From Candidatus Hodarchaeota archaeon (GTDB lineage Archaea; Asgardarchaeota; Heimdallarchaeia; Hodarchaeales; YT1-039), in assembly GCA_016840025.1 (NCBI GenBank), contig JAEOTF010000307.1, forward strand, positions 1 to 20,928: DNA of 20,928 bases, read 5' to 3'. The position numbers and the translations under genes are program-made. How positions within the stretch are numbered: the stretch's first letter is position 1; every line of letters begins with the position of its first letter. The notes beneath the pieces are model-generated. The model was not told the DNA's origin. It searched no databases and saw only the letters and a program-made list of their open reading frames with translations. Below, in pieces: positions 5,435 to 19,617 of this stretch.

Positions 5435-6208
5435 TTAACGTGGTTTTTTCTTTTTGATCCGAGTTTTAGGGGTAGAATCATCAATCGTAGGTGGCGGTTT
5501 TTTCTTTTTTATAGAAGAAGGGGTCTTACTGATAATTTTCGGAGGTAGGGTTTGACCTTTACTTTTCTTCCGTTTATCTTTACCTATTCCCTTTGTGGGA
5601 GGGGGAAGCCGACTCTTAGCAGGCGTTTTACTGCGTATGTCCTTGGGTACTTTTTGATTGACCGCCTTTCTTCCCTTATCTTTACCTATTCCCTTTGTGG
5701 ATGGGGGAAGCCGACTCTTAGCAGGCGCCTTACTGACAATTTCTTTCGGTGGGAGCTTATCTTTAGGAGTTTTTTTACGTACGCCCTTTTCCACAGTGCC
5801 TTTACTGCTGAGAGTCGTTAATTGATTTTTAGGCTTAATAGAGCTTTTGGGTGGAGAAACACTCGAAAATTTTTCTTTTCTATGCTTCAATCTAGATTTT
5901 TTAGGTTTTTTAGACGAATCAGGTAGTTGTTTCTTTTGTGAATCAACAGGTGGAGGAATATTTATTTTAGAATCTGTTGAATCACGTAATCCTAGACCAG
6001 TAGGCAGATGAATCTCCGATTTAGAAATTCTTGATTTAGTTGTACGTCTGGGTGGAGGAAGGATGAATGATTCACGCTTTTCTTGAGACTCCCGAGGCTT
6101 TTCCTCTTCACTTTTACTAGCTGGGGTCTTAGCTCTAATCTGACTGGCTGGAGTCTTGTGTTTAATCTTGTCATCTGGAGTTTTCTTTTTGATTTTCCGT
6201 CTTACCAA
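5435..6208 (-). CDS. Lys/Pro-rich, repetitive, disordered basic protein of the ubiquitin cluster
   Basis: About 257 aa, dominated by Lys, Pro, Ser, Thr and Arg with almost no hydrophobic core. It contains many K-T-P or K-x-P motifs and two near-identical blocks that each contain K-S-R-L-P-P-(S/P)-T-K-G-I-G-K-D-K. It ends K-K-K-K-P-R. The composition resembles histone-H1-like tails or nucleic-acid-binding tails; with so many lysines it could also be an acceptor of the modifiers encoded upstream, but that is inference. A TTG at 6277 would add 23 hydrophobic residues. I prefer the TTG at 6208 because a TATA-like CTATAAAATT (6242-6251) predicts transcription start near 6221. It is the last gene of the cluster on the same strand, after a 165-bp gap, so it may be transcribed separately. 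No known family recognised. Confidence 0.6.
   Translation of the reverse strand: MVRRKIKKKTPDDKIKHKTPASQIRAKTPASKSEEEKPRESQEKRESFILPPPRRTTKSRISKSEIHLPTGLGLRDSTDSKINIPPPVDSQKKQLPDSSKKPKKSRLKHRKEKFSSVSPPKSSIKPKNQLTTLSSKGTVEKGVRKKTPKDKLPPKEIVSKAPAKSRLPPSTKGIGKDKGRKAVNQKVPKDIRSKTPAKSRLPPPTKGIGKDKRKKSKGQTLPPKIISKTPSSIKKKKPPPTIDDSTPKTRIKKKKPR
5574..5735 (-). repeat. Two 60-bp direct repeats inside the Lys/Pro-rich gene
   Basis: The copies at 5574-5633 and 5676-5735 differ at only 4 of 60 positions and start 102 bp apart, a multiple of three, so the frame is kept. They encode the repeated block around K-S-R-L-P-P-x-T-K-G-I-G-K-D-K. The high nucleotide identity in a low-complexity gene indicates recent in-frame duplication. 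Confidence 0.85.
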
Positions 6209-6241
6209 GGACTCAACAACCAAACTAATAGAAAAAGTTCC

Positions 6242-6251
6242 AATTTTATAG
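6242..6251 (-). promoter_or_regulatory. TATA-like box before the Lys/Pro-rich gene
   Basis: Minus-strand CTATAAAATT, placed so that transcription would begin near 6221, 13 bases before the TTG at 6208. It suggests this gene can be expressed independently of the preceding membrane-protein genes. Sequence match only. Confidence 0.35.
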
Positions 6252-6373
6252 ATGTAGCTATTTGAGAAGAAAAGCAAAAAAACTTCAAGAACAGTCTTTA
6301 ATTTATGAATTCAGTGAAACAAAACAATAAACACTATTTAGGGCATATTTAAACAAGGCGAAAGCGATTGGAA

Positions 6374-6964
6374 CTATCGGCCTAATAAAAATCCGATGCC
6401 AGAGAATAGATAGAATAAACCGTAAAGAACCCCCAGGAGATCGGACGCAAACAAGCCGACGTAAAGAAATAACGAGCCGAAGATGAAAAACGTGAAAATT
6501 GCGGTCCATTCGGCGGAAGGCCCTTTGGATGATTGGGAAGTCAGCCGAATAAACTGATAGCGGGTAAAACTGCGAATCAGCAGGGCCGTGGAGATCGCTA
6601 AATAGGGAAACGCTAGCATCGACAAGAAGGTGACGCTGAGGATCAGTTCCTCGGTAGAGGAACGTTGCTGGATTGCAATATCGAAGGTGAGTACACTTTC
6701 ATCACCGAGCGGGATAAACGGAGCCGCACCGAGGACGAGCAGGGGTATAATATTGGCAAGGGAAAAGAAATAGACCTCGTTGAGGGTGGCCTTGTACTGG
6801 GCATAATGAAACATCCGCATGAAGTAGAGGAAGGTGACGGTACCGTAAAAAGCGAGAAAGGCAGTCATTACGGCGACTTCATCCTCTTCGCGGAGGAAGA
6901 AAAAAATCGCCGCTGACAGCCCAGCCAACAGGATGAACCACGCAATAGTATGACGAGAAGCCAT
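6374..6964 (-). CDS. Six-TM membrane protein, paralogue of the RING protein's membrane domain
   Basis: A 196-aa integral membrane protein with six predicted helices (about 7-25, 31-50, 63-84, 105-130, 152-170, 172-194) and short loops. It carries H-Y-A-Q-Y-K-A at residues 53-59 and L-G-D-E at 86-89. The neighbouring RING protein has Y-Y-R-Q-Y-R-A and L-G-D-S at exactly the same positions, with the same helix spacing, so the two membrane modules look paralogous. It could form a heteromer with the RING protein. The ATG follows GAGGT at good spacing, and that site overlaps the stop codon region of the RING gene, so coupled translation is likely. Its base composition is near 50% GC, clearly higher than the RING gene. 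No known family recognised. Confidence 0.78.
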   Translation of the reverse strand: MASRHTIAWFILLAGLSAAIFFFLREEDEVAVMTAFLAFYGTVTFLYFMRMFHYAQYKATLNEVYFFSLANIIPLLVLGAAPFIPLGDESVLTFDIAIQQRSSTEELILSVTFLSMLAFPYLAISTALLIRSFTRYQFIRLTSQSSKGPSAEWTAIFTFFIFGSLFLYVGLFASDLLGVLYGLFYLFSGIGFLLGR

Positions 6965-6973
6965 TGCTTTACC

Positions 6974-8200
6974 TCAATTCCTTTTTTCAGTATGTTCTTT
7001 GATTATTCTTTTGTATGAATTTCCAGATACTCTAATCATCTTTTCATCGGTTATGGGTTTATTACAACGACTACAGAATTTACTGACCTCTTTCCACTTT
7101 CGAAATTCCAACTCATGGGCCGGATAGCGGCAATGAGGACATATAACTACCTTACGATTTGATTCTGTTGGAAACTCATAACAAAAGATACAACGAAAAT
7201 CATCTTGTGTGAGATGTCGACCAACAGGTGTAATGCGTTCGATAATGGCAGGACTAAGTTGTTTAACGCGACGAGAAGGCCTAGATTGTTCAATTGCCAT
7301 TCCAGGTACTACATTAATGTCACCTTGACTTCTTCTTTGAGGGGATGAAACTGATCCTCGTGAAGTAGTTAAGGAAGGTCTTCTCGAAGCAGAAGAGGGG
7401 CTTCGTTGAGCAGTTGTAGGAGAACGCCTTTGTGTAGGGGTTGTTGAAGAGCGCCGGGTGGTCGTAGGAGAAGATCTACGAGCAGATGTACGTTGAGAGA
7501 GAGTAGGCCTGCGCTCTCTAGAAGTGGTTCGCGATAGACCACGAGAGGAAGGACGTGAAGTTCTCGACGGACGAGATCGAACGGGTCTAAGGGAAACTAT
7601 AACTACAGGAAACACATAATGTTGGATCAGAATTAATGAACTGGCTATAAAAAACACCAAAGAACTAATCTCAACCTCTCTTGTTTGCGTCCAAAAGAAA
7701 CCCAGCAGCAAAAATAGAATAGCATTAAAAATAATCACTGCAGCAATTGGATATCTTTTACGAGCTATGAAAATGCCAGAATATCGGCCAGAATAATATC
7801 TTCGGAGTAGTAGAAGAAGAAGGATATAGAAAGGAAGAACAAAAATCAATCCAAACAGATTTAGGAACAGAAAATAGTTTCCAAAGCTAATAAGATCTAG
7901 TGTTGATTCGAGAAAGAATGTTTGAAGTAATGGGGAATCACCAAGAGTAGCGATAGCAGAAATGAGGGAACCTAACAGAGCTAGGGATGTTAATAAGAGA
8001 AGAAAAGTAGCAGAAGCAGGGGGAGCCCGATATTGGCGGTAATAAAGCCATTCATCGATTAATTTTATACCTAAAACTGCGAGTATAGTAAAGTATCCGA
8101 TGGTAAGAGCCGTTTCAAGACCGTGGTCGGTTAGCATAGTCAGGACTGCGAACACCGTTCCAGCTATGAATATACTGATATATACATTCCTTTCGACCAT
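6974..8200 (-). CDS. Membrane-anchored RING-like protein, candidate E3 ubiquitin-like ligase
   Basis: A 408-aa protein in three parts. Residues about 1-205 form six transmembrane helices (about 7-22, 30-48, 62-85, 105-132, 151-170, 178-203). Residues about 206-325 are an Arg/Ser/Thr/Pro-rich linker resembling an RS segment, probably cytoplasmic by the positive-inside rule. Residues 337-379 form a RING-like zinc domain: C337-x2-C340, C354-x2-C357, H362, W369, C376-x2-C379. The block A-H-x3-F-x2-W-x6-C-x2-C matches the second half of RING domains, but the position of the usual ligand three residues after the His is Glu. The ATG follows AAGGGACAATAA. Lying 19 bp after the JAMM gene in a cluster with E1 and E2, it is the obvious E3 candidate. 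The membrane-plus-RING arrangement resembles eukaryotic ER ligases such as Hrd1 in design only; I do not claim homology. Confidence 0.8.
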   Translation of the reverse strand: MVERNVYISIFIAGTVFAVLTMLTDHGLETALTIGYFTILAVLGIKLIDEWLYYRQYRAPPASATFLLLLTSLALLGSLISAIATLGDSPLLQTFFLESTLDLISFGNYFLFLNLFGLIFVLPFYILLLLLLRRYYSGRYSGIFIARKRYPIAAVIIFNAILFLLLGFFWTQTREVEISSLVFFIASSLILIQHYVFPVVIVSLRPVRSRPSRTSRPSSRGLSRTTSRERRPTLSQRTSARRSSPTTTRRSSTTPTQRRSPTTAQRSPSSASRRPSLTTSRGSVSSPQRRSQGDINVVPGMAIEQSRPSRRVKQLSPAIIERITPVGRHLTQDDFRCIFCYEFPTESNRKVVICPHCRYPAHELEFRKWKEVSKFCSRCNKPITDEKMIRVSGNSYKRIIKEHTEKRN

Positions 8201-8219
8201 TTATTGTCCCTTTCATTTC

Positions 8220-9215
8220 TTACCCATCATTTTCATAATCATATTCTAAAAACATAGCTTTACCTTCACTTAGAGGAAGGGTTGCGGCTAATATTCCTGG
8301 AACGCTGTCCACAGGGCAATTGAGGACCTCAAAGGGGGGTTCTTCCCATTTTTTTAGATTTCCTTTAAGTCTGAAGATCTTAAAGCCATAAGAACGCGAT
8401 GAAATTCTTGTTGGGTCAATAACAAGAGCGATAGGAGCCGTTACCTGTGAATTGGTTCGAGCAAGACGTTGATATCGGACTTGGGTGTGATAATCGGTGT
8501 CTGACATGAAAAATCCATATGAGGGATGACTATGATACCAACCGACAATTTGGGTACCGGGTTCTTTAGATTTATAAACACGGACCAAGCTTTGGGGATT
8601 CTGGATTTGCGCATTAATACTGGTACCATGGCCTACTGGATACGCATCTGTAATCACTATACGAGCCAGAGGGGTATCTTGGTTCTCAATGTTACCTACT
8701 AGAAGACCAATAACCTCAACCCATTTTTTCCGTTTTATTTTGGGGTTTGCATACTTTTTGGCGTGTAATGCTAATTTAAGATATGCTTTGAGATGAATTT
8801 TCACCCTAACAGGCTCAGCATCTATTTCTAAATCAGTAGAGTCAGTTGGAATATCTGAATCACCTAACTTCTCAGAATCTTTCAAGTTAATATCATAATA
8901 TTCATCCCCGAAACCGTCCAATGTCTTTTCAGTTTTATCAGTATCTTGATTCTTGGATTTAAGGGATTTTTCAGAGTTGGAAAGCTTCTTAGACTCATTA
9001 GTGGGATCATTTTTGATTTGGGTTATAGAAACGGGATTATTTTTGGCTGATGTTCTAAGGATGTTGTCCAGCTTAATTGAAGTAAGAGAGGGGACTGTAA
9101 TCGTAAAACTCCCATCCTTAGGATCAAAGTGTAAAGAAAACTCTTTTAGTAGATCCTCAAAAGGGCCTTTTTTGATTTTTGATTCCCCTTTTTTTGACAT
9201 ACTTTTCAATTCCAT
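8220..9215 (-). CDS. JAMM/MPN+ metalloprotease, Rpn11-like deconjugating enzyme
   Basis: A 331-aa protein. Residues about 135-300 form an MPN+ domain with the complete JAMM zinc site: upstream Glu (E167 in K-W-V-E-V-I-G-L-L-V-G), then G-W-Y-H-S-H-P-S-Y-G-F-F-M-S-D-T-D, giving His228, His230, Ser238 and Asp241. This block closely follows the Rpn11 pattern, so isopeptidase activity removing the cluster's ubiquitin-like modifiers is likely. Residues 1-135 are an extra N-terminal region: a short beta-rich start (S-F-T-I-T-V-P-S-L-T) followed by a Ser/Lys/Asp-rich disordered stretch. The modifiers end at their mature glycine, so a precursor-trimming role is not needed. An internal ATG at 9200 is an alternative start. 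It lies 27 bp after the E2 gene and is probably in the same transcript. Confidence 0.92.
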   Translation of the reverse strand: MELKSMSKKGESKIKKGPFEDLLKEFSLHFDPKDGSFTITVPSLTSIKLDNILRTSAKNNPVSITQIKNDPTNESKKLSNSEKSLKSKNQDTDKTEKTLDGFGDEYYDINLKDSEKLGDSDIPTDSTDLEIDAEPVRVKIHLKAYLKLALHAKKYANPKIKRKKWVEVIGLLVGNIENQDTPLARIVITDAYPVGHGTSINAQIQNPQSLVRVYKSKEPGTQIVGWYHSHPSYGFFMSDTDYHTQVRYQRLARTNSQVTAPIALVIDPTRISSRSYGFKIFRLKGNLKKWEEPPFEVLNCPVDSVPGILAATLPLSEGKAMFLEYDYENDG

Positions 9216-9242
9216 GTTATATTCAGGTTAGCAGCTTATTTT

Positions 9243-9770
9243 TTACCATTTTTCTTTGGCGTATTTTTTAGTGATCTCACGCGCTTTTTTCTTGAATTTT
9301 TTCCTGTTTTTGATGTATTCTACAGCAGCCTTCTTATTAAAAACATCATGAGGATTTGTATAGGCTTCATCAATATTAAACATTGCTAAGATCGAATAAA
9401 TAACAGTCGTGATATTTTTTGAAGGGCTCCATCCATCAGGTCTTCCTTTTAATTCAGGGTCAACTAGAGCAAGACAAATATTTCGCTTACCTATATACTC
9501 ATTGGGTTTTGGCCAGAAATTCGGGTGCCAGATTGGCGTATGCAGTCTAACGAATGGAGGGGAATAAGGATAGTTAGAACGAAATTTTATCTCAAGTCTA
9601 AACTTCCCTTTTTCGTAAGGTGTCTCTTTAGGCCCTTCTAACAATATTGCTAGATGTTGTACAGACTTTTTTTTGCCAGGGAAGGCTTTCAACTGTTTAA
9701 TAATTCTTTTCTTGTACAATTTTTTGAGTTCGTTATAATCATTAGTAATTCTTTTCATCCGAATAGACAT
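9243..9770 (-). CDS. E2 ubiquitin-conjugating enzyme homologue (UBC fold)
   Basis: A 175-aa protein with a clear UBC fold: E-I-K-F-R-S-N-Y-P-Y-S-P-P, then H-P-N at 82-84, the catalytic Cys99 in R-N-I-C-L-A-L-V, W-S-P at 114-116, and a helical C-terminus rich in Lys. It should take the modifier from the E1 as a thioester on Cys99 and pass it to a substrate Lys with the RING protein. His82 and Cys99 are 17 residues apart, where canonical E2s such as the UbcH5 type have about 10, so there is a roughly 7-residue insertion (F-W-P-K-P-N-E-Y-I-G-K-R) beside the active site. The start ATG follows GGAGGT, which lies within the last codons of the E1 gene; the two genes are separated by only 3 bp, so translation is probably coupled. 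Confidence 0.95.
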   Translation of the reverse strand: MSIRMKRITNDYNELKKLYKKRIIKQLKAFPGKKKSVQHLAILLEGPKETPYEKGKFRLEIKFRSNYPYSPPFVRLHTPIWHPNFWPKPNEYIGKRNICLALVDPELKGRPDGWSPSKNITTVIYSILAMFNIDEAYTNPHDVFNKKAAVEYIKNRKKFKKKAREITKKYAKEKW

Positions 9771-9773
9771 CTG

Positions 9774-11024
9774 CTAGACCTCCAGTTGGATTTGAAGATA
9801 AAATTGCTTATCTTCATCGAATCCAGTTACAAGAATTGTTTCGAAAGATCGAAGACCAGCTTTGGATATAGTTTGACCGAAATCGATCTCTGTTACTTCT
9901 GAAGAATCAATTCTAAAGATGGTAGGGGGGAATTCGGGGTCAATAACGAGGTTTTTCTCCTTCACTACTTTTGAAATTATTTTTTGTAGAGAGTATCTGG
10001 GTTTAACACGAATTTTATACAGTGGGGTTCTATCCGCACCACATAGTGAACAACTGGGATTTACAGGTTTTTCAATCTCATAAAATTTACATGTAAGACC
10101 ATTATAAATCATATAATTTAATTGTAAATTCCCAAGTGTTTTGTGTCCAGGATTATTAATATGATGAAGAATTTTCACCGTTTCTTGGCTTTGTAAGGAA
10201 GCCATTACGCAATTAATGGTTATAACAGTAGGTTCATGAAATTCGATAAGGTGAACGATCTGATCTGCGGTAAAAGGCTGTGATGATGGGAAATATTTCT
10301 CTAACAGTTTATTTGCGTAATTTTGGACTTCTTTAATTTCCTCAGAATTAAGAATATTAGCCGATCGTTCATATTTTTCCTCGAAATATAATTGACCCTT
10401 CAAAATACAATGAGAAGGACGACGGGGCTCTCCAACGAGGGTACAAGCGCCCAAATCGTCCTGTTCGCGGTCTCTTAACGGATCACATTCTAAGCAAGCA
10501 TTTTGTAATGGAAATACGGTATAAATATGGCCATTATAGGCAGCAGTGCCTGCATCAATTAATGGCTTACGATTATGAACAGCTCGTCGGTTTAATTCAG
10601 CACGAGCTTCAATTGAATCCAAGCCTGCTACATATATGTCGCAATCTTGATACACATAAGGTGGGATATCTTGCAACATTGTGTTGTAAGCTTCAATTCG
10701 AATAAATGGATTTATCTCACGAAGCTTTTTCGCAGCTACTTCTGCTTTAGAGGCACCTTCAGAGGCACCAACAAACAAAAATTGGCGATTCATATTGGAA
10801 TATTCAATTGTATCCATATCTACTAATATTAAATGACCAATTCCGACCATAGCTAAATTTTTTGCAACTTCAACGCCTAATCCTCCTACTCCCGCGATCA
10901 AAACTTTGCTTCTCTTTAAAAGTTCTTGATTCCACCCAGGTAAACGTAGTTGTCTGTCGAATAGGCGTTTTTCATCATTGGTTAGAAACTTTGATGCAAA
11001 ATTAGAGACATTTTTAGAGTTCAT
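9774..11024 (-). CDS. E1-like ubiquitin-activating enzyme (Uba3-like, with catalytic Cys and UFD)
   Basis: A 416-aa protein. Residues about 18-180 form the adenylation domain: G-V-G-G-L-G nucleotide loop (45-50), Asp69/Asp71, and N-M-N-R-Q (77-81). Zinc ligands are the pairs C177/C180 and C325/C328. The catalytic-cysteine motif is G-A-C-T-L-V-G-E-P-R-R-P-S-H-C (Cys194), which matches the C-T-x4-P-R-x-P-x-H-C motif of Uba3-type E1 proteins. Residues about 340-416 form a C-terminal ubiquitin-fold domain, the part that recruits E2. These last two features separate it from MoeB/ThiF sulfur-transfer enzymes. It should adenylate the C-terminal Gly of the two modifiers and carry them as a thioester. 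A GGATGA site overlaps the Ub-like 2 stop, so the genes are probably cotranscribed. Confidence 0.95.
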   Translation of the reverse strand: MNSKNVSNFASKFLTNDEKRLFDRQLRLPGWNQELLKRSKVLIAGVGGLGVEVAKNLAMVGIGHLILVDMDTIEYSNMNRQFLFVGASEGASKAEVAAKKLREINPFIRIEAYNTMLQDIPPYVYQDCDIYVAGLDSIEARAELNRRAVHNRKPLIDAGTAAYNGHIYTVFPLQNACLECDPLRDREQDDLGACTLVGEPRRPSHCILKGQLYFEEKYERSANILNSEEIKEVQNYANKLLEKYFPSSQPFTADQIVHLIEFHEPTVITINCVMASLQSQETVKILHHINNPGHKTLGNLQLNYMIYNGLTCKFYEIEKPVNPSCSLCGADRTPLYKIRVKPRYSLQKIISKVVKEKNLVIDPEFPPTIFRIDSSEVTEIDFGQTISKAGLRSFETILVTGFDEDKQFYLQIQLEV

Positions 11025-11033
11025 ATTTCTGAT

Positions 11034-11381
11034 TCATCCAGCTGTGGAAACGGGGATAATCAATACCTCTTGACCGTCTTCAATCTCATAATTGGAGAGG
11101 ATATCATCGGCGTCTAGGGTTCGACCAGCAATAGATAAATGAAAGCCTTCAGGGTCAAGTCCAATGACATTCCCGAGAGTTGTTTTCAGTTCCGAGACAG
11201 CCAAATCGGCATCAACAGTTAGTTCTTCCAATTTTTCACTAGGACCAATGGTAGAGCGAAAAACGAGTTTTATTTGTGAACCTTTAGGAAATTTTGATTT
11301 GACAGGTTTTTTAGACTCAATTACTTCCTCTTCTTCTTCAATTTCAAGATCATAGTCTTCAAAATCTTCATTTTCTGACAT
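11034..11381 (-). CDS. Ubiquitin-like modifier 2, ending Ser-Thr-Ala-Gly
   Basis: A beta-grasp protein of 115 aa. After an acidic N-terminal tail (E-D-Y-D-L-E-I-E-E-E-E-E) and a Lys/Pro linker, the last 75 or so residues follow ubiquitin closely; S-I-A-G-R-T-L-D-A-D-D-I-L-S-N-Y-E-I aligns with ubiquitin I-F-A-G-K-Q-L-E-D-G-R-T-L-S-D-Y-N-I. The chain ends 19 residues after the Asn that matches the Asp of S-D-Y, exactly as in ubiquitin, so the final Gly corresponds to Gly76. The last five residues are V-S-T-A-G in place of R-L-R-G-G. An upstream ATG at 11420 would add 13 residues. I prefer 11381 because the resulting start (M-S-E-N-E-D-F-E-D-Y-D-L-E) matches that of Ub-like 1 and because a TATA-like TTAATATAG lies at a suitable distance. 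Confidence 0.9.
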   Translation of the reverse strand: MSENEDFEDYDLEIEEEEEVIESKKPVKSKFPKGSQIKLVFRSTIGPSEKLEELTVDADLAVSELKTTLGNVIGLDPEGFHLSIAGRTLDADDILSNYEIEDGQEVLIIPVSTAG

Positions 11382-11464
11382 GTGGCAATCATTCCTTGAG
11401 ATCGAGTGTGAGGAAGTCATTCATAATGGCCTCTATATTAACTATTGTTAATTCTGCCAGACTT

Positions 11465-11472
11465 AAAAAAAA
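11465..11472 (-). terminator. T-run after Ub-like 1
   Basis: On the minus strand, CTTCTCTCTTCC is followed by eight Ts about 27 bases after the Ub-like 1 stop. U-rich tracts alone can terminate archaeal RNA polymerase. A TATA-like TTAATATAG follows, before Ub-like 2. Together they suggest Ub-like 1 is at least partly monocistronic. Confidence 0.4.
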
Positions 11473-11498
11473 GGAAGAGAGAAGAAAACGGCTAAAAG

Positions 11499-11849
11499 CT
11501 AACCTGCAGTCGAATGGGGGATCATTAGGATTTCGTCGCCGCTACCGACTCCATAATCGCCGATTTTAGCCCCTTCATCCATCGTACGACCAGCATGGCT
11601 AAGGTGAAAGTCATCAGGGCTCAAAGCAAAGATGTTTGAAAGTGTATCTTTCACATCGCCGACTGGAGTGTTTTCACCTACAGCAAGCTTCTCCGTTCTT
11701 TCGGGACCAATTGTTGATTTGAAGAAGATATTCTTACGGGCACCAGACCCACTTGTTACAGGGGTTTTAGCTTGAGTAGGAGTTTTGGATTTTATTGGAG
11801 TTTGTTCTTCTTCCATTTCCAAATCTAAATCTTCAAAGTCACCAGACAT
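11499..11849 (-). CDS. Ubiquitin-like modifier 1, ending Ser-Thr-Ala-Gly
   Basis: A 116-aa paralogue of the modifier encoded downstream. The N-terminal tail is acidic (D-F-E-D-L-D-L-E-M-E-E-E), followed by a flexible region with two K-T-P motifs (residues 22-30). The beta-grasp domain spans about 39-116 and includes F-K-S-T-I-G-P, S-P-D-D-F-H-L-S-H-A-G-R-T-M and I-G-D-Y-G-V. It ends P-H-S-T-A-G with the stop immediately after the Gly, so no processing is needed; the penultimate residue is Ala instead of Gly, and the position of ubiquitin Arg72 is His. The gene is near 50% GC in places, richer than its neighbours. A run of eight Ts on its sense strand just downstream suggests partial termination, so it may be made in greater amounts than the rest of the cluster. 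Confidence 0.9.
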   Translation of the reverse strand: MSGDFEDLDLEMEEEQTPIKSKTPTQAKTPVTSGSGARKNIFFKSTIGPERTEKLAVGENTPVGDVKDTLSNIFALSPDDFHLSHAGRTMDEGAKIGDYGVGSGDEILMIPHSTAG

Positions 11850-12008: not shown

Positions 12009-12395
12009 TTGCCCCAAAAAGCGCAAAACATAAAAATATCCAGTAGAGCATGGGAATTACTACGATGGGCTAAATTTAAATTGAGTACAAAGTCATATGG
12101 CGATGCGATAGTTCAAATGGATAAAAGAATAGCAAAAAACAGATCGGGGAGACTAAAAGAATCATTACAGGAGTTTGATGAAGAAAGGCATCGGATCAAA
12201 ATAAAGACACCAAAGGACGAGACTTTGCTGGTACCACAAGCGACAAAACCGAAAACGATCCTATTAAATCCAAAAGCACATAGAATCCTTGAACGAGTCA
12301 AAATTGAAAGCAATGAGCCAGCATATACCTTTTCGGATGCTATCGAATTCTTAGTAAATGAAAATAACCTGATGCCTGACCATTTAAAAAAATAG
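12009..12395 (+). CDS. Tandem ribbon-helix-helix-like protein, putative DNA-binding/antitoxin-like
   Basis: A 128-aa protein with an internal repeat. Residues 8-37 (I-K-I-S-S-R-A-W-E-L-L-R-W-A-K ending S-Y-G-D-A-I-V-Q-M) and residues 84-115 (I-L-L-N-P-K-A-H-R-I-L-E-R-V-K ending T-F-S-D-A-I-E-F-L) share the pattern of archaeal VapB-like ribbon-helix-helix antitoxins: strand, helix with L-x3-K, then S/T-x-x-D-A-I helix. Two units in one chain could form the usual RHH dimer intramolecularly. The start is a TTG at 12009 preceded by AGAGGG; no ATG fits the frame. No toxin gene is adjacent, so a transcription-factor role is more likely than an antitoxin. It is divergent from Ub-like 1 and could regulate the shared promoter region. 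The assignment is from pattern only. Confidence 0.6.
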   Translation: MPQKAQNIKISSRAWELLRWAKFKLSTKSYGDAIVQMDKRIAKNRSGRLKESLQEFDEERHRIKIKTPKDETLLVPQATKPKTILLNPKAHRILERVKIESNEPAYTFSDAIEFLVNENNLMPDHLKK

Positions 12396-13595: not shown

Positions 13596-14992
13596 TTGGC
13601 ATCAAAGGAAAATAATAGAAATAAAAGCTTACGTCCTCCGAATAAAACACTTGTTGAACTTTACCACGAAAAGAAATTATTAATCAAAGAAATTGCAGAA
13701 GAATTTGGCGTTAGCAGAGCTACTGTATTTAATTGGTTTAAATACTACAAAATTCCATCTCGTCGTACGTCTCGTCCCTCAAAAAACGTTCTTATAAAAC
13801 TTTATGAAAATCAAGGAATGAGCTTACAACAGATAGCAGATAAATACGGTGTTCATATTACTACGGTATATCGGTGGTTTAGATACAATAAGATGCAGTT
13901 ACGCCAAACCTTTATTCGTCCTCCAAGAGCGGCATTTCTGGAGCTTTATAATAAACAAGAAAGGACACTGCAGCAGATTGCAGATAAATACGGCGTTGCT
14001 TTAAGTACAATATACAGTTGGTTTAGTTTCTATAGAATTCAATTACCTCATCCAACTGATCGTCCTCCGAAAATGGAACTTGTAGAGCACTATCATAAAC
14101 AAGAAAGGACATTAAAACAGATTGGAGATTACTACAATGTCTGTCGCACTACAGTCTCCAAATGGTTCAAGCATTATGAAATACCGTTACGAAAACAATA
14201 TCTTCCTCGACCTTCGAGAGCGGTACTTGTGGAGCTCTATCATAAACAAGAAAAGACGCTGCAGCAGATTGCAGATAAATACAGTGTATCATTAACGACT
14301 GTATTCAGATGGTTTAACTACTATAAAATTAAAACACGAAAAAGGCAACTCATTCGACCTTCTAAAACCTTGCTTATGGAGCTTTACTATAAAAAAGGCA
14401 TTTCATCTCTAAAAATTGCAGAAAGATTTAATGTGAGCCAAGCTGCGGTTCATGCTTGGTTTAAACATTATGGAATCAAAGCACGACCACCTTGCATTGA
14501 AACGCCGTGGAATGAGTGGGAAGACATTTGTTATTCAATTGCGAATTATCTCCTTTCTGACAAATACTGGGTACCAAAACACGTATCGATACACCACAAT
14601 CATCAGAATTTCACTATGTTCAGCCCGATCTTGTTATTCTTGTTGAAAATAAGGTCGTAGATGTCATAGACTTTAAGTGATCTGAGTCTGCGCTTGATTA
14701 CAAAGATTATAAAATCCACCCATCTATAAGCTCAAATAAAAGAGCATTTTTTTGGCTCTTACACGGGGAGTCACGAGTTGAAGCATACTTCGATGCAAAT
14801 AAAATGAAAACGATTTCCCTTAGTGACTACAATGATGAAATTCACAAAAACAACAATTTCACTAAAGTTCTTATTTACATCAATTCTAATGACCTTATTC
14901 AAATGCTAAATAATCAAATCACAAGCAATAATAAAATAGCAATTGAGAAAATCATTCAAAAAATCCATTTTTTACACGCTCTACGCGCCTAG
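13596..14992 (+). pseudogene. Broken gene: six HTH repeats plus PD-(D/E)xK-like nuclease domain
   Basis: Residues about 13-300 hold six tandem units of 47-49 aa, each with the pattern R-P-x4-L-x-E-L-Y-x-K-Q-x4-L-Q-Q-I-A-D-K-Y-x-V, then T-T-V-x-R-W-F-x-Y-Y. Each is a resolvase/homeodomain-like helix-turn-helix. The intact frame ends at 14660, but the sequence continues in another frame from about 14575-14602 with Q-P-D-L-V-I-L-V-E-N-K-V-V-D-V-I-D-F-K (Pro-Asp at 14624-14629, Asp-x-Lys at 14669-14677), a PD-(D/E)xK nuclease core. An in-frame TGA at 14678-14680 follows, then about 100 sensible codons to 14992. One frameshift and one stop suggest recent inactivation, unless the sequence is wrong. 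The start is a TTG at 13596 after GGAGATG. It is convergent with the D12 methyltransferase, 32 bp apart, so the pair may be a decayed restriction-modification-like unit. Confidence 0.72.
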
Positions 14993-17991: not shown

Positions 17992-19617
17992 TCAACTTCT
18001 GTCACTTCTGCTATTCTCTGTTTCTTTTTTGTTAGGTGTCATTCGATTACCCCGTTGCCAATCTAATCTCCACCTGACAGGATGTAACCACACATCCTCT
18101 ATCCCGTTGGTACAATCATCGAAATGAAACGCCTTCGGGATTACGTGAACGATTATGTTGTATCCACCATTGACATCACTATTTACCAATGTGCCATTAA
18201 AAGATCTAAATAGTCCTCTATGGATTCGTTTGCCTTTGTATATATGGTGTTTCTTAACTGGCTCTTGATCTAAGAAACTACATTTGCTGGTGTAGTCTTC
18301 GCGGGTAAAAACCACTCTGATTCCTGCATCTTCGGCTTTATACTCTAGCATTTGTAGAAACCGGTAGAAGGGAATAGACACAAATTGTTGATTGGTCTTT
18401 TTACCGAGGTTGATCTTCTGCTTCCAGCCTTTGTTCCTGCCAATAATGATCATGTCTATTTTGTTTTCAATACACCAGTCAATATACATTCGGCTGATCT
18501 TGTGGAAAAGATCATAGAGTTTGCGATCTCTAATATCAATTAATTTCTTTTTCTTTTTACCAGTCTTGATATTTTGCTTGTCATACATGCTTTGAATTCG
18601 TGCGAGTTCTTTGTTGAAGTATTGGTTAATAGATTTGACAATACCGCCTTTGACAATAATTGGTCGTTCGCCAATATTGTTCACATTAGTTATCAGATTG
18701 TCTAATCCGACATCCGTGCCAACAATCCTTTTAGGGTCGGTATTAGGAATAATCGGTATCTGTTTAGCATAAAGGACTTCTAAAATATACCCTGTGCCTT
18801 TTGGCACAATTCGTGCCCCTAGAAATTGAGTATGAAAAGATAACCGGGTTTTGACTTCCAGACCTAGGGCTTCGGGGAGTTTAAAGACTCCGTTTTTATA
18901 TCTCACTTGTTGGTTGGTAAAGATTAGAAGCGTTTGTCCGTTCTTAGCTTTGTACCTCGGTAGACGGGGTTCTCCGGTGTATTTTTGCGGACTCCCCTGC
19001 CAATCCTTGTGCGCTTTAAAATAGGAATCCCATACTGAATCTACGTGACGAAGTAGCTGTTGTGAGGACTGGATTGGCAGATTACGATAGTTAGGAGAGT
19101 TTTTCAGTAACCTATTTAGCTCATCGTATCGTAGCCATTGTTTTGTCTTGAAATATTCCTGGCGAATGATATAGGTCGCTTCATTATACAAATTTTTGGC
19201 TAGATAACAGAGATGACCTAATGTCTTGTTCGGTGCGATCCATAGCCGTTCTGCTCTTGTAACAAGTTGATAGGGGGCTTTCTCAATCATAATTCCTTGA
19301 TTTTCACTTGTATTGAATAGAATTATTCTTCCTGACAGTTGCAGTTGTTCTCGTAGTTCTTTCGGAATAGTAAAGCGATAGGTCTTCGAGAGTTTGATAG
19401 CTTTGGTCTTACCAGTCTTAGGAGGGGTGAGATGTAAGTGGAGTTGTTGTTTGTCTTTGTTCAAAGAAAGAAATACTTGCATGCTCTTTTGAATCGCATT
19501 TTCTTCTCGTATTTGTTTGGGAATCGTTGTTTGTCCTTTGTTATTGACTTTGGCAAAGACTTCTAAAGTTTCAGATGTTACACCCTGAATTTGTTGAGAA
19601 GTATTGCACAAAGCCAT
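17992..19617 (-). CDS. tnpB: TnpB-family protein with two N-terminal AbrB/SpoVT domains
   Basis: A 541-aa protein. Residues about 18-63 and 72-113 are two swapped-hairpin AbrB/SpoVT-like domains: V-N-N-K-G-Q-T-T-I-P-K-Q-I-R-E and L-S-K-T-Y-R-F-T-I-P-K-E-L-R-E. Residues about 120-520 are a TnpB of the IS1341 type: L-W-I-A-P-N then K-N-L-Y-N-E-A, RuvC-I G-T-D-V-G-L-D-N (Asp302), I-I-I-G-R-N-K-G-W-K-Q, E-D-Y-T-S-K-C-S-F-L-D (Glu439 or the adjacent acidic residue) and N-S-D-V-N-G-G-Y-N-I (Asp481). RuvC-II lacks Glu at its classical place, as in subfamilies with a rearranged active site, and the zinc ribbon has only one cysteine. The AbrB part could bind DNA, perhaps the element's own promoter. 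The stop lies 50 bp from the right end. Confidence 0.88.
   Translation of the reverse strand: MALCNTSQQIQGVTSETLEVFAKVNNKGQTTIPKQIREENAIQKSMQVFLSLNKDKQQLHLHLTPPKTGKTKAIKLSKTYRFTIPKELREQLQLSGRIILFNTSENQGIMIEKAPYQLVTRAERLWIAPNKTLGHLCYLAKNLYNEATYIIRQEYFKTKQWLRYDELNRLLKNSPNYRNLPIQSSQQLLRHVDSVWDSYFKAHKDWQGSPQKYTGEPRLPRYKAKNGQTLLIFTNQQVRYKNGVFKLPEALGLEVKTRLSFHTQFLGARIVPKGTGYILEVLYAKQIPIIPNTDPKRIVGTDVGLDNLITNVNNIGERPIIVKGGIVKSINQYFNKELARIQSMYDKQNIKTGKKKKKLIDIRDRKLYDLFHKISRMYIDWCIENKIDMIIIGRNKGWKQKINLGKKTNQQFVSIPFYRFLQMLEYKAEDAGIRVVFTREDYTSKCSFLDQEPVKKHHIYKGKRIHRGLFRSFNGTLVNSDVNGGYNIIVHVIPKAFHFDDCTNGIEDVWLHPVRWRLDWQRGNRMTPNKKETENSRSDRS

Follow-up and report, generated by a model that had tools for sequence, protein, structure and literature searches.

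The 20,928-nucleotide contig JAEOTF010000307.1 of a Candidatus Hodarchaeota archaeon (the window) carries, by ORF (open reading frame) calling, a cluster of eight genes, all on the minus strand within positions 5435..11849. Judged by its sequences, this cluster is a separate ubiquitin-like system parallel to that of canonical Gly-Gly ubiquitin. It probably serves the conjugation and deconjugation of modifiers ending in Ala-Gly, with a membrane RING protein as the ligase. A preliminary description of the window had listed two ubiquitin-like genes, E1, E2, a JAMM protease, a RING-like protein with six transmembrane helices, a second six-helix protein (TM2) and a Lys-rich protein on one strand, and this set is borne out by the ORFs, by Pfam and by conservation of residues. 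The parallel system with its Ala-Gly modifier, a variant RING finger with a glutamate and a motif common to several of the proteins go beyond that description.

The genes are tightly packed, with gaps of 9 bp between modifier 2 and E1, 3 bp between E1 and E2, 27 bp between E2 and JAMM, 19 bp between JAMM and the RING gene, and 9 bp between the RING gene and TM2, in agreement with the upper bound of 27 bp given earlier. Among the window proteins, the Pfam families ThiF (E-value 6e-55), UQ_con (2e-28), JAB (2e-14) and ubiquitin (7e-7 and 7e-6) were found above the curated cut-offs. The RING protein, TM2 and the Lys-rich protein had no Pfam family above cut-off. A scan of contigs with the cluster yielded a single relative, contig L001 of the Heimdallarchaeota genome G001, whose class and phylum are below called the Heimdall class and the Asgard phylum.

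Ubiquitin-like modifier 1 (11499..11849, minus strand, 116 residues) consists of an acidic N-terminus with an SKTP..AKTP motif, the ubiquitin fold and the terminus STAG (codons 11502-11513). Modifier 2 (11034..11381, minus strand) has the same terminus (codons 11037-11048). Its ORF is open to 11420, and the ATG at 11381 (MSENEDF) is the more likely start, as relatives start with MSENEDF. The ubiquitin beta-grasp domain (PF00240) scores above cut-off in both modifiers, with 26.1 bits in modifier 1, narrowly above the cut-off of 25.4, and 29.3 bits in modifier 2. That both end in STAG and not in GG had previously gone unremarked. The STAG sequence is unchanged in 20 of 20 aligned modifiers. The short modifiers of the fetched loci were defined by E <=1e-30 and length <=190 amino acids, which gave 75 proteins, one of them truncated by a contig end. 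The 74 complete ones have STAG (71), SIAG (2) or SVAG (1), and none has the C-terminal Gly-Gly of the ubiquitin family. Nothing follows the Ala-Gly in 44 of the 74, and the other 30 continue for 1-6 unconserved residues, a pattern that fits a processed precursor.

Eleven longer proteins contain the same domain, five of them ending in Ala-Gly or Ala-Gly plus 1-2 residues and six not. L183:1910-3718 encodes a 602-residue fusion of a HerA-type ATPase (Pfam) with a ubiquitin domain, which is C-terminal and has an STAG end. Proteins close to it in length, with Ala-Gly ends (plus one residue in L196), are encoded at L184:14572-16314 and L196:2424-4121. The longer proteins at L180:14223-15011, L181:3892-4701, L185:3985-4779 and L198:6860-7687 have a related ubiquitin domain and no Ala-Gly end (mostly SRKK-like); possibly they are binding partners that are not conjugated.

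Canonical ubiquitin is present beside the Ala-Gly modifier. A shorter ubiquitin of Heimdall-class genomes (system I) ends in GG in all 27 readable cases from the 30 loci examined, and 22 of these 27 genomes also hold the Ala-Gly modifier. E1 adjoins the GG ubiquitin in 8 of the 10 system-I loci read. System I and the window system both have the ubiquitin fold, but system I ends in GG and its E1, which is shorter, belongs to a separate group; the RING matches near it are weak and confined to the finger. A third set, seen at three loci, comprises a modifier of about 108 residues ending in DQIKGG with E1, E2 and JAMM. In the E1 tree, whose group labels follow the loci, whose root merely serves the drawing and whose long branches are flagged, the three locus contexts form three groups, each set apart by a branch of 100% bootstrap support. 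Group II (100/99) holds the window E1 together with 11 Heimdall-class rows. In Heimdall-class genomes, at L140-L148 (e.g. L141:8528-12322), the third system adjoins an SPFH/stomatin-like protein (identified by eye) and Cys-rich zinc-finger-like proteins; perhaps this system is membrane-linked as well.

The enzymes retain their catalytic residues. Conservation was counted among relatives above a strict score within the fetched loci. The E1 activating enzyme (9774..11024, minus strand) has the features of the UBA1/UBA3 type, namely the ThiF adenylation domain, the catalytic Cys194 (kept in 52 of 53 rows, the remaining one being a gap) and the UFD. The latter is supported by the best profile match, UBA3, the catalytic subunit of the NEDD8 E1, which aligns across 31-406 of 411 positions. 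Human UBA3 works with a second subunit; no gene for a partner of this type was noticed in the window cluster. The E2 conjugating enzyme (9243..9770, minus strand) has a UBC domain (UQ_con, PF00179) with HPN and the catalytic Cys99, both kept in 51 of 51 rows. Aligned with E2 13, the best-aligned solved E2, it has additional residues flanking the active site on either side. The JAMM/MPN metalloprotease (8220..9215, minus strand) has a long N-terminal extension. Its metal and catalytic residues (E, HxH, S, D), that is, E167, H228, H230, S238 and D241, are kept in 54 of 54 rows (a wider set of JAMM columns at the 95% level contains gap-rich ones and was disregarded), and its nearest solved structures are CSN5 and the Rpn11-like protein 6fju.

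The membrane RING protein (6974..8200, minus strand) consists of six helices, an Arg/Ser/Thr-rich, Lys-poor linker and a C-terminal variant RING finger. The ligand positions of the finger are C337, C340, C354, C357, H362, E365, C376 and C379. Compared with the eight-ligand cross-brace of C3HC4 or C3H2C3 type, seven positions are Cys or His and the sixth is Glu365. This Glu is present in 23 of 23 aligned rows, and the seven Cys/His ligands are invariant. The predicted structure of the finger matches the RING/U-box fold. Its best match among solved sequences is RNF24 (E 2.3e-5), and a weaker resemblance was seen to the zinc finger of IFT144/WDR19 (E 0.004). The Lys:Arg ratio is 87:367 in the linker versus 186:115 in the finger domain. 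The closest other membrane RING protein (81% identity) among the 61 proteins listed by the search is labelled Hodarchaeota, and 'hypothetical protein' is the only name that the sources give to any of them.

TM2 (6374..6964, minus strand) and the membrane half of the RING protein are paralogues, as shown by hhalign (probability 96.5, E 7.8e-10, 169 columns). AlphaFold predicts six long helices in both proteins, the third one in TM2 being broken (pLDDT of TM2 85.7). Comparison of the RING membrane half with the PDB produced no convincing relative, a missing match being uninformative here. One locus of the Heimdall class has an additional small membrane zinc-finger gene (L049:10901-11494), with TM2 on one side of it and the Lys-rich gene on the other.

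The distribution of these genes was analysed in 227 genomes of the phylum, mostly drafts, with up to 8 candidates per genome scored for the membrane RING, 14 for TM2 and 19 for the modifier. The modifier was found in 109 genomes and a membrane RING match in 100, one of which (G004) has the bare finger only. Both occur in 97 genomes, the RING alone in 3, the modifier alone in 12 and neither in 115 (Fisher p 7e-46, a value that ignores kinship). This genome-wide co-occurrence led us to reject the possibility that the membrane genes are passengers. TM2 was found in 36 genomes, all of the Heimdall class (36 of 58), and 35 of these also hold the modifier. Since TM2 is restricted to this class and is a paralogue of the RING membrane half, the RING protein looks old and TM2 looks like a later duplication. 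In viral contigs, no relative of the E1 or of the modifier was found by the patterns used.

The search for the RING gene in the 58 Heimdall-class genomes gave some match in 49, many of them finger-only, and 34 loci from 33 genomes were then read. In all 33 genomes the RING gene comes immediately after the JAMM gene (in L055 the RING is a fragment). Of the 34 loci, 29 have TM2 adjoining the RING gene and 25 have a linked Lys-rich gene with the common motif, L048 being a weak case. Thus the association of the RING, TM2 and Lys-rich genes with E1 and E2, for which a check in relatives had been proposed, is indeed conserved. Two arrangements are seen. One resembles the window, with the order Ub-Ub-E1-E2-JAMM-RING-TM2-Lys on a single strand. 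The other is E2-JAMM-RING-TM2, then a Lys-rich gene on the opposite strand, then Ub-E1. In other classes 65 genomes have a RING match; a sample of 20 loci from 19 of them has the order E1-E2-JAMM-RING in 19 loci and Ub-E1-E2-JAMM-RING in 17 (the E2 of L191 being split into two ORFs). As the gene order recurs across many other genomes, a chance arrangement is excluded.

Several observations weigh against a conjugation system with a membrane RING ligase. The 12 genomes that hold the modifier without a RING match belong here, although most are drafts and at most 8 RING candidates were scored in each. In L054 and L058 (genomes G034 and G029) TM2 is not beside the RING gene and lies on another contig, as in G001. 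Genome G044, whose locus is on a contig of 3.2 Mb, retains E1, E2, JAMM and the two modifiers, but of the RING only a fragment of 145 residues, and TM2 is missing. Arg exceeds Lys also in the RING membrane half (133:204) and in TM2 (127:184), and thus the Lys-poor linker may reflect membrane proteins generally; in one row, L058, the two are equal in number (18:18). The predicted topology rests on models and charge. The finger has Glu365 in place of the standard sixth Cys, and thus its E3 activity is not certain. Finally, weaker finger-only matches elsewhere in many genomes leave room for other E3s.

At the G044 locus (L055) the Lys-rich gene was not seen either, and an aldehyde-dehydrogenase-like gene (identified by eye) comes next; this may be a deletion or an assembly error.

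The Lys-rich low-complexity protein (5435..6208, minus strand) contains repeated K[TIVF]P, with seven motifs in all. Its ORF is open to 6277, and the TTG at 6208 (...MVRRKIKKKTP) is the more likely start, since relatives start with M.R.KI..KP. A motif close to [IV]-x-[SE]-K-[TI]-P is common to this protein, to the modifier tail and to the divergent upstream regulator-like gene (12009..12395, plus strand). The latter encodes a tandem ribbon-helix-helix-like protein (fold assigned by eye) with an IKIKTP linker and has no match in Pfam or NCBIfam. In its family, [IL]xxKxP occurs in all 12 readable members, the window one included, and K[TI]P in 9; one further member is masked. Position -3 of the motif often holds Ile or Val, or Pro in the second group of Lys-rich proteins, and position -1 often Ser, Glu or Gln.

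The motif is enriched in these proteins. K[TIVF]P is present in 69 of 77 N-terminal extensions of modifiers, at 27.3 per 1000 residues versus 1.53 in other ORFs of >=150 residues from the same loci. The modifier tails (n=74) contain 120 occurrences versus 4.4 (sd 2.1) in shuffled sequences. The corresponding numbers are 67 versus 13.7 (sd 3.6) for the Lys-rich proteins of the window type (n=10, the window and nine relatives), 102 versus 13.1 (sd 3.5) for those of the second arrangement (n=13), and 37 versus 1.6 (sd 1.2) for coiled-coil proteins (9 of 14). Homology was the criterion for gathering the tails and the first Lys-rich group, and motif count for selecting the second Lys-rich group and the coiled coils; thus only the former two are fair tests. 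Since the motif was defined after inspection of these proteins, all these counts are descriptive and not a blind test.

The coiled-coil proteins are the linked partners in other Asgard classes, where a long protein of this type was found by profile in 14 of 20 loci. The motif is close to both ends in the seven sequences inspected, and in G122 the coiled-coil gene adjoins further modifier genes. Therefore we rejected the idea that the Lys-rich gene is private to close relatives of the window: the motif recurs in other linked proteins. The preliminary description had counted this gene as part of a membrane-directed version of the system, but the motif it has in common with the modifiers explains its presence better. 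A DNA pattern for the motif produced 14 matches in three genomes versus 4 for a reversed control; single matches are little informative, with the exception of the coiled-coil protein.

An OST3/OST6-like membrane protein of G122 with IKTKTP near its N-terminus was considered as a candidate substrate, and this was not clearly supported. Among the 120 relatives listed of 411, K[TIVFSA]P occurs in the first 60 residues in 75 and is missing in 45; in the examples the motif Lys is often Arg and once Gly. In a genome with a contig of 3.3 Mb, a coiled-coil motif protein and extra Ala-Gly modifier genes are situated between FtsZ-like and actin-like genes (L221:2757-13472, identified by eye).

Given the observed gene set and order, active-site residues, Ala-Gly terminus, co-occurrence and motif enrichment, and the modelled RING-like fold, we infer the following catalytic steps, membrane location, acceptor site and role. 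JAMM would cut the short tails, where present, leaving a modifier that ends in STAG. The UBA3-like E1 would adenylate the terminal Gly, load the modifier onto Cys194 and pass it to Cys99 of E2. The RING-like finger, exposed to the cytosol at the end of a flexible linker poor in Lys, would then discharge E2 onto lysines of membrane proteins or proteins near the membrane, and JAMM would later strip the modifier from the conjugates. In the Heimdall class, TM2 would pair with the membrane domain of the RING protein. The system may recognise the motif, both in the modifier tail and in the partner protein (Lys-rich or coiled-coil), either as a source of acceptor lysines or as a docking site. In view of the conserved gene association, the membrane-directed character proposed earlier is well supported as a prediction of location and activity.

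The two possible roles of the motif are hard to distinguish. It may merely serve for docking or for binding of lipids or nucleic acids: the Lys-rich protein would bind acidic lipids, DNA or the modifier tail, and its lysines would not be acceptors. This has only slightly less than an even chance. Indeed, the modifier tails are acidic, in contrast to the strong basicity of the Lys-rich protein. Pro at +2 is invariant to the same degree as Lys, which follows from how the scan was defined, and K-P repeats resemble tails of the histone H1 type. On the other hand, the motif sits beside the acidic stretch of the modifier and occurs singly in the regulator-like gene, which suggests specific recognition of a peptide over bulk charge. 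A more elaborate and rather doubtful possibility is a membrane counterpart of SUMO. The six-helix RING ligase would build the Ala-Gly modifier into chains and attach it at the consensus to a scaffold with lysine motifs, low-complexity in the Heimdall class and a long coiled coil elsewhere; the motif-bearing regulator would be a feedback substrate, and the system would be ancient. SUMO has an N-terminal tail with a short lysine motif common to its partners. However, the likeness is an analogy only. The sequence [IV]x[SE]K[TI]P differs from the SUMO consensus, and the C-terminus is Ala-Gly.

As for the cluster as a whole, the membrane protein could be a receptor or an anchor, its degenerate finger recruiting the E2-modifier thioester, conjugates or JAMM, with E2 acting without this E3 or with another one. 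The invariant Glu at the sixth position, the weaker likeness to IFT144/WDR19, for which we know of no ligase activity, and the weak matches of other finger proteins in many genomes agree with this reading. Still, it is unlikely, given the fold match, RNF24 as the top sequence match and the seven invariant Cys/His ligands. Moreover, reading of the clusters, which was not a systematic search, brought up no other RING gene apart from the zinc-finger gene of L049. Even less probable is an ordinary ubiquitin cluster of the Caldiarchaeum type, with the membrane and Lys-rich genes as neighbours by chance or local history. Its E1, E2 and JAMM do share superfamilies with the Caldiarchaeum enzymes (PMC5654768, PMC6043591). 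However, the RING occurs with the modifier in 97 genomes versus 3 and 12 with one alone, the Gly-Gly ubiquitin elsewhere in the genome has its own E1 while the cluster modifier ends in Ala-Gly, and TM2 co-occurs even when not adjacent. That the modifiers act as sulfur carriers, like ThiS, MoaD or Urm1, and not as protein tags is hardly credible. The NCBIfam matches include MoeB models, all below cut-off, and E1s of the ThiF family serve sulfur carriers too. Yet the conserved E2 with HPN and Cys, the E1 with its catalytic Cys and UFD, JAMM and the RING protein are all present.

The operon of Caldiarchaeum subterraneum (Ub, E1, E2, small RING, Rpn11) has the same enzyme set as the window. Reconstitution of that system has been reported with a small RING and a di-Gly ubiquitin (PMC5654768), and its Rpn11 processes a C-terminally extended modifier by cutting after Gly-Gly (PMC6043591). 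In the window, by contrast, the modifier ends in Ser-Thr-Ala-Gly and the RING is fused to six helices; within the portions of these reports at hand, no TM2, Lys-rich or motif partner is seen for the Caldiarchaeum operon. The window cluster thus has neither the GG modifier nor the small RING of that type. The comparison with Caldiarchaeum made in the preliminary description holds for the enzyme set but is incomplete, since the window system is a lineage of its own, whose Ala-Gly modifier coexists with canonical Gly-Gly ubiquitin.

Eukaryotic membrane RING E3s, e.g. those of ER (endoplasmic reticulum) quality control, combine a multi-pass membrane part with a cytosolic RING. The likeness is in architecture only. 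For the membrane part in the window no convincing match was found, and the finger has a Glu at the sixth ligand position. A survey of Asgard ubiquitin and ESCRT genes describes ubiquitin gene clusters and, in Lokiarchaeota, a discrete ubiquitin region (PMC9192718); parts of this cluster may already be included in the counts of such surveys. The accessible parts of PMC5654768, PMC6043591, PMC9192718 and a 2024 review (PMC11354881) do not mention the membrane RING, the Ala-Gly tail or the motif, and among the open PubMed Central papers listed by the searches, supplements aside, none was recognised as describing them.

Elsewhere in the window, positions 13596-14660 encode about six repeated helix-turn-helix units (Pfam matches, counted by eye) with RPxK-like spacers. 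Genes of the TnpB/IS605 type lie at both ends of the window, at 1-474 (labelled by eye) and 17992-19617, the latter with an AbrB/MazE-like match in its N-terminal part.

Among known prokaryotes, Asgard archaea are the nearest relatives of eukaryotes. If the proposed system is real, both membrane-anchored RING ligases and orthogonal parallel modifier systems, of which ubiquitin, NEDD8 and SUMO are the eukaryotic examples, may be older than eukaryotes. Thanks to the Ala-Gly tail and the common lysine motif, both orthogonality and the choice of substrate are open to direct tests with purified proteins, and the cluster could show the origin of ubiquitin-style membrane control before eukaryotes.

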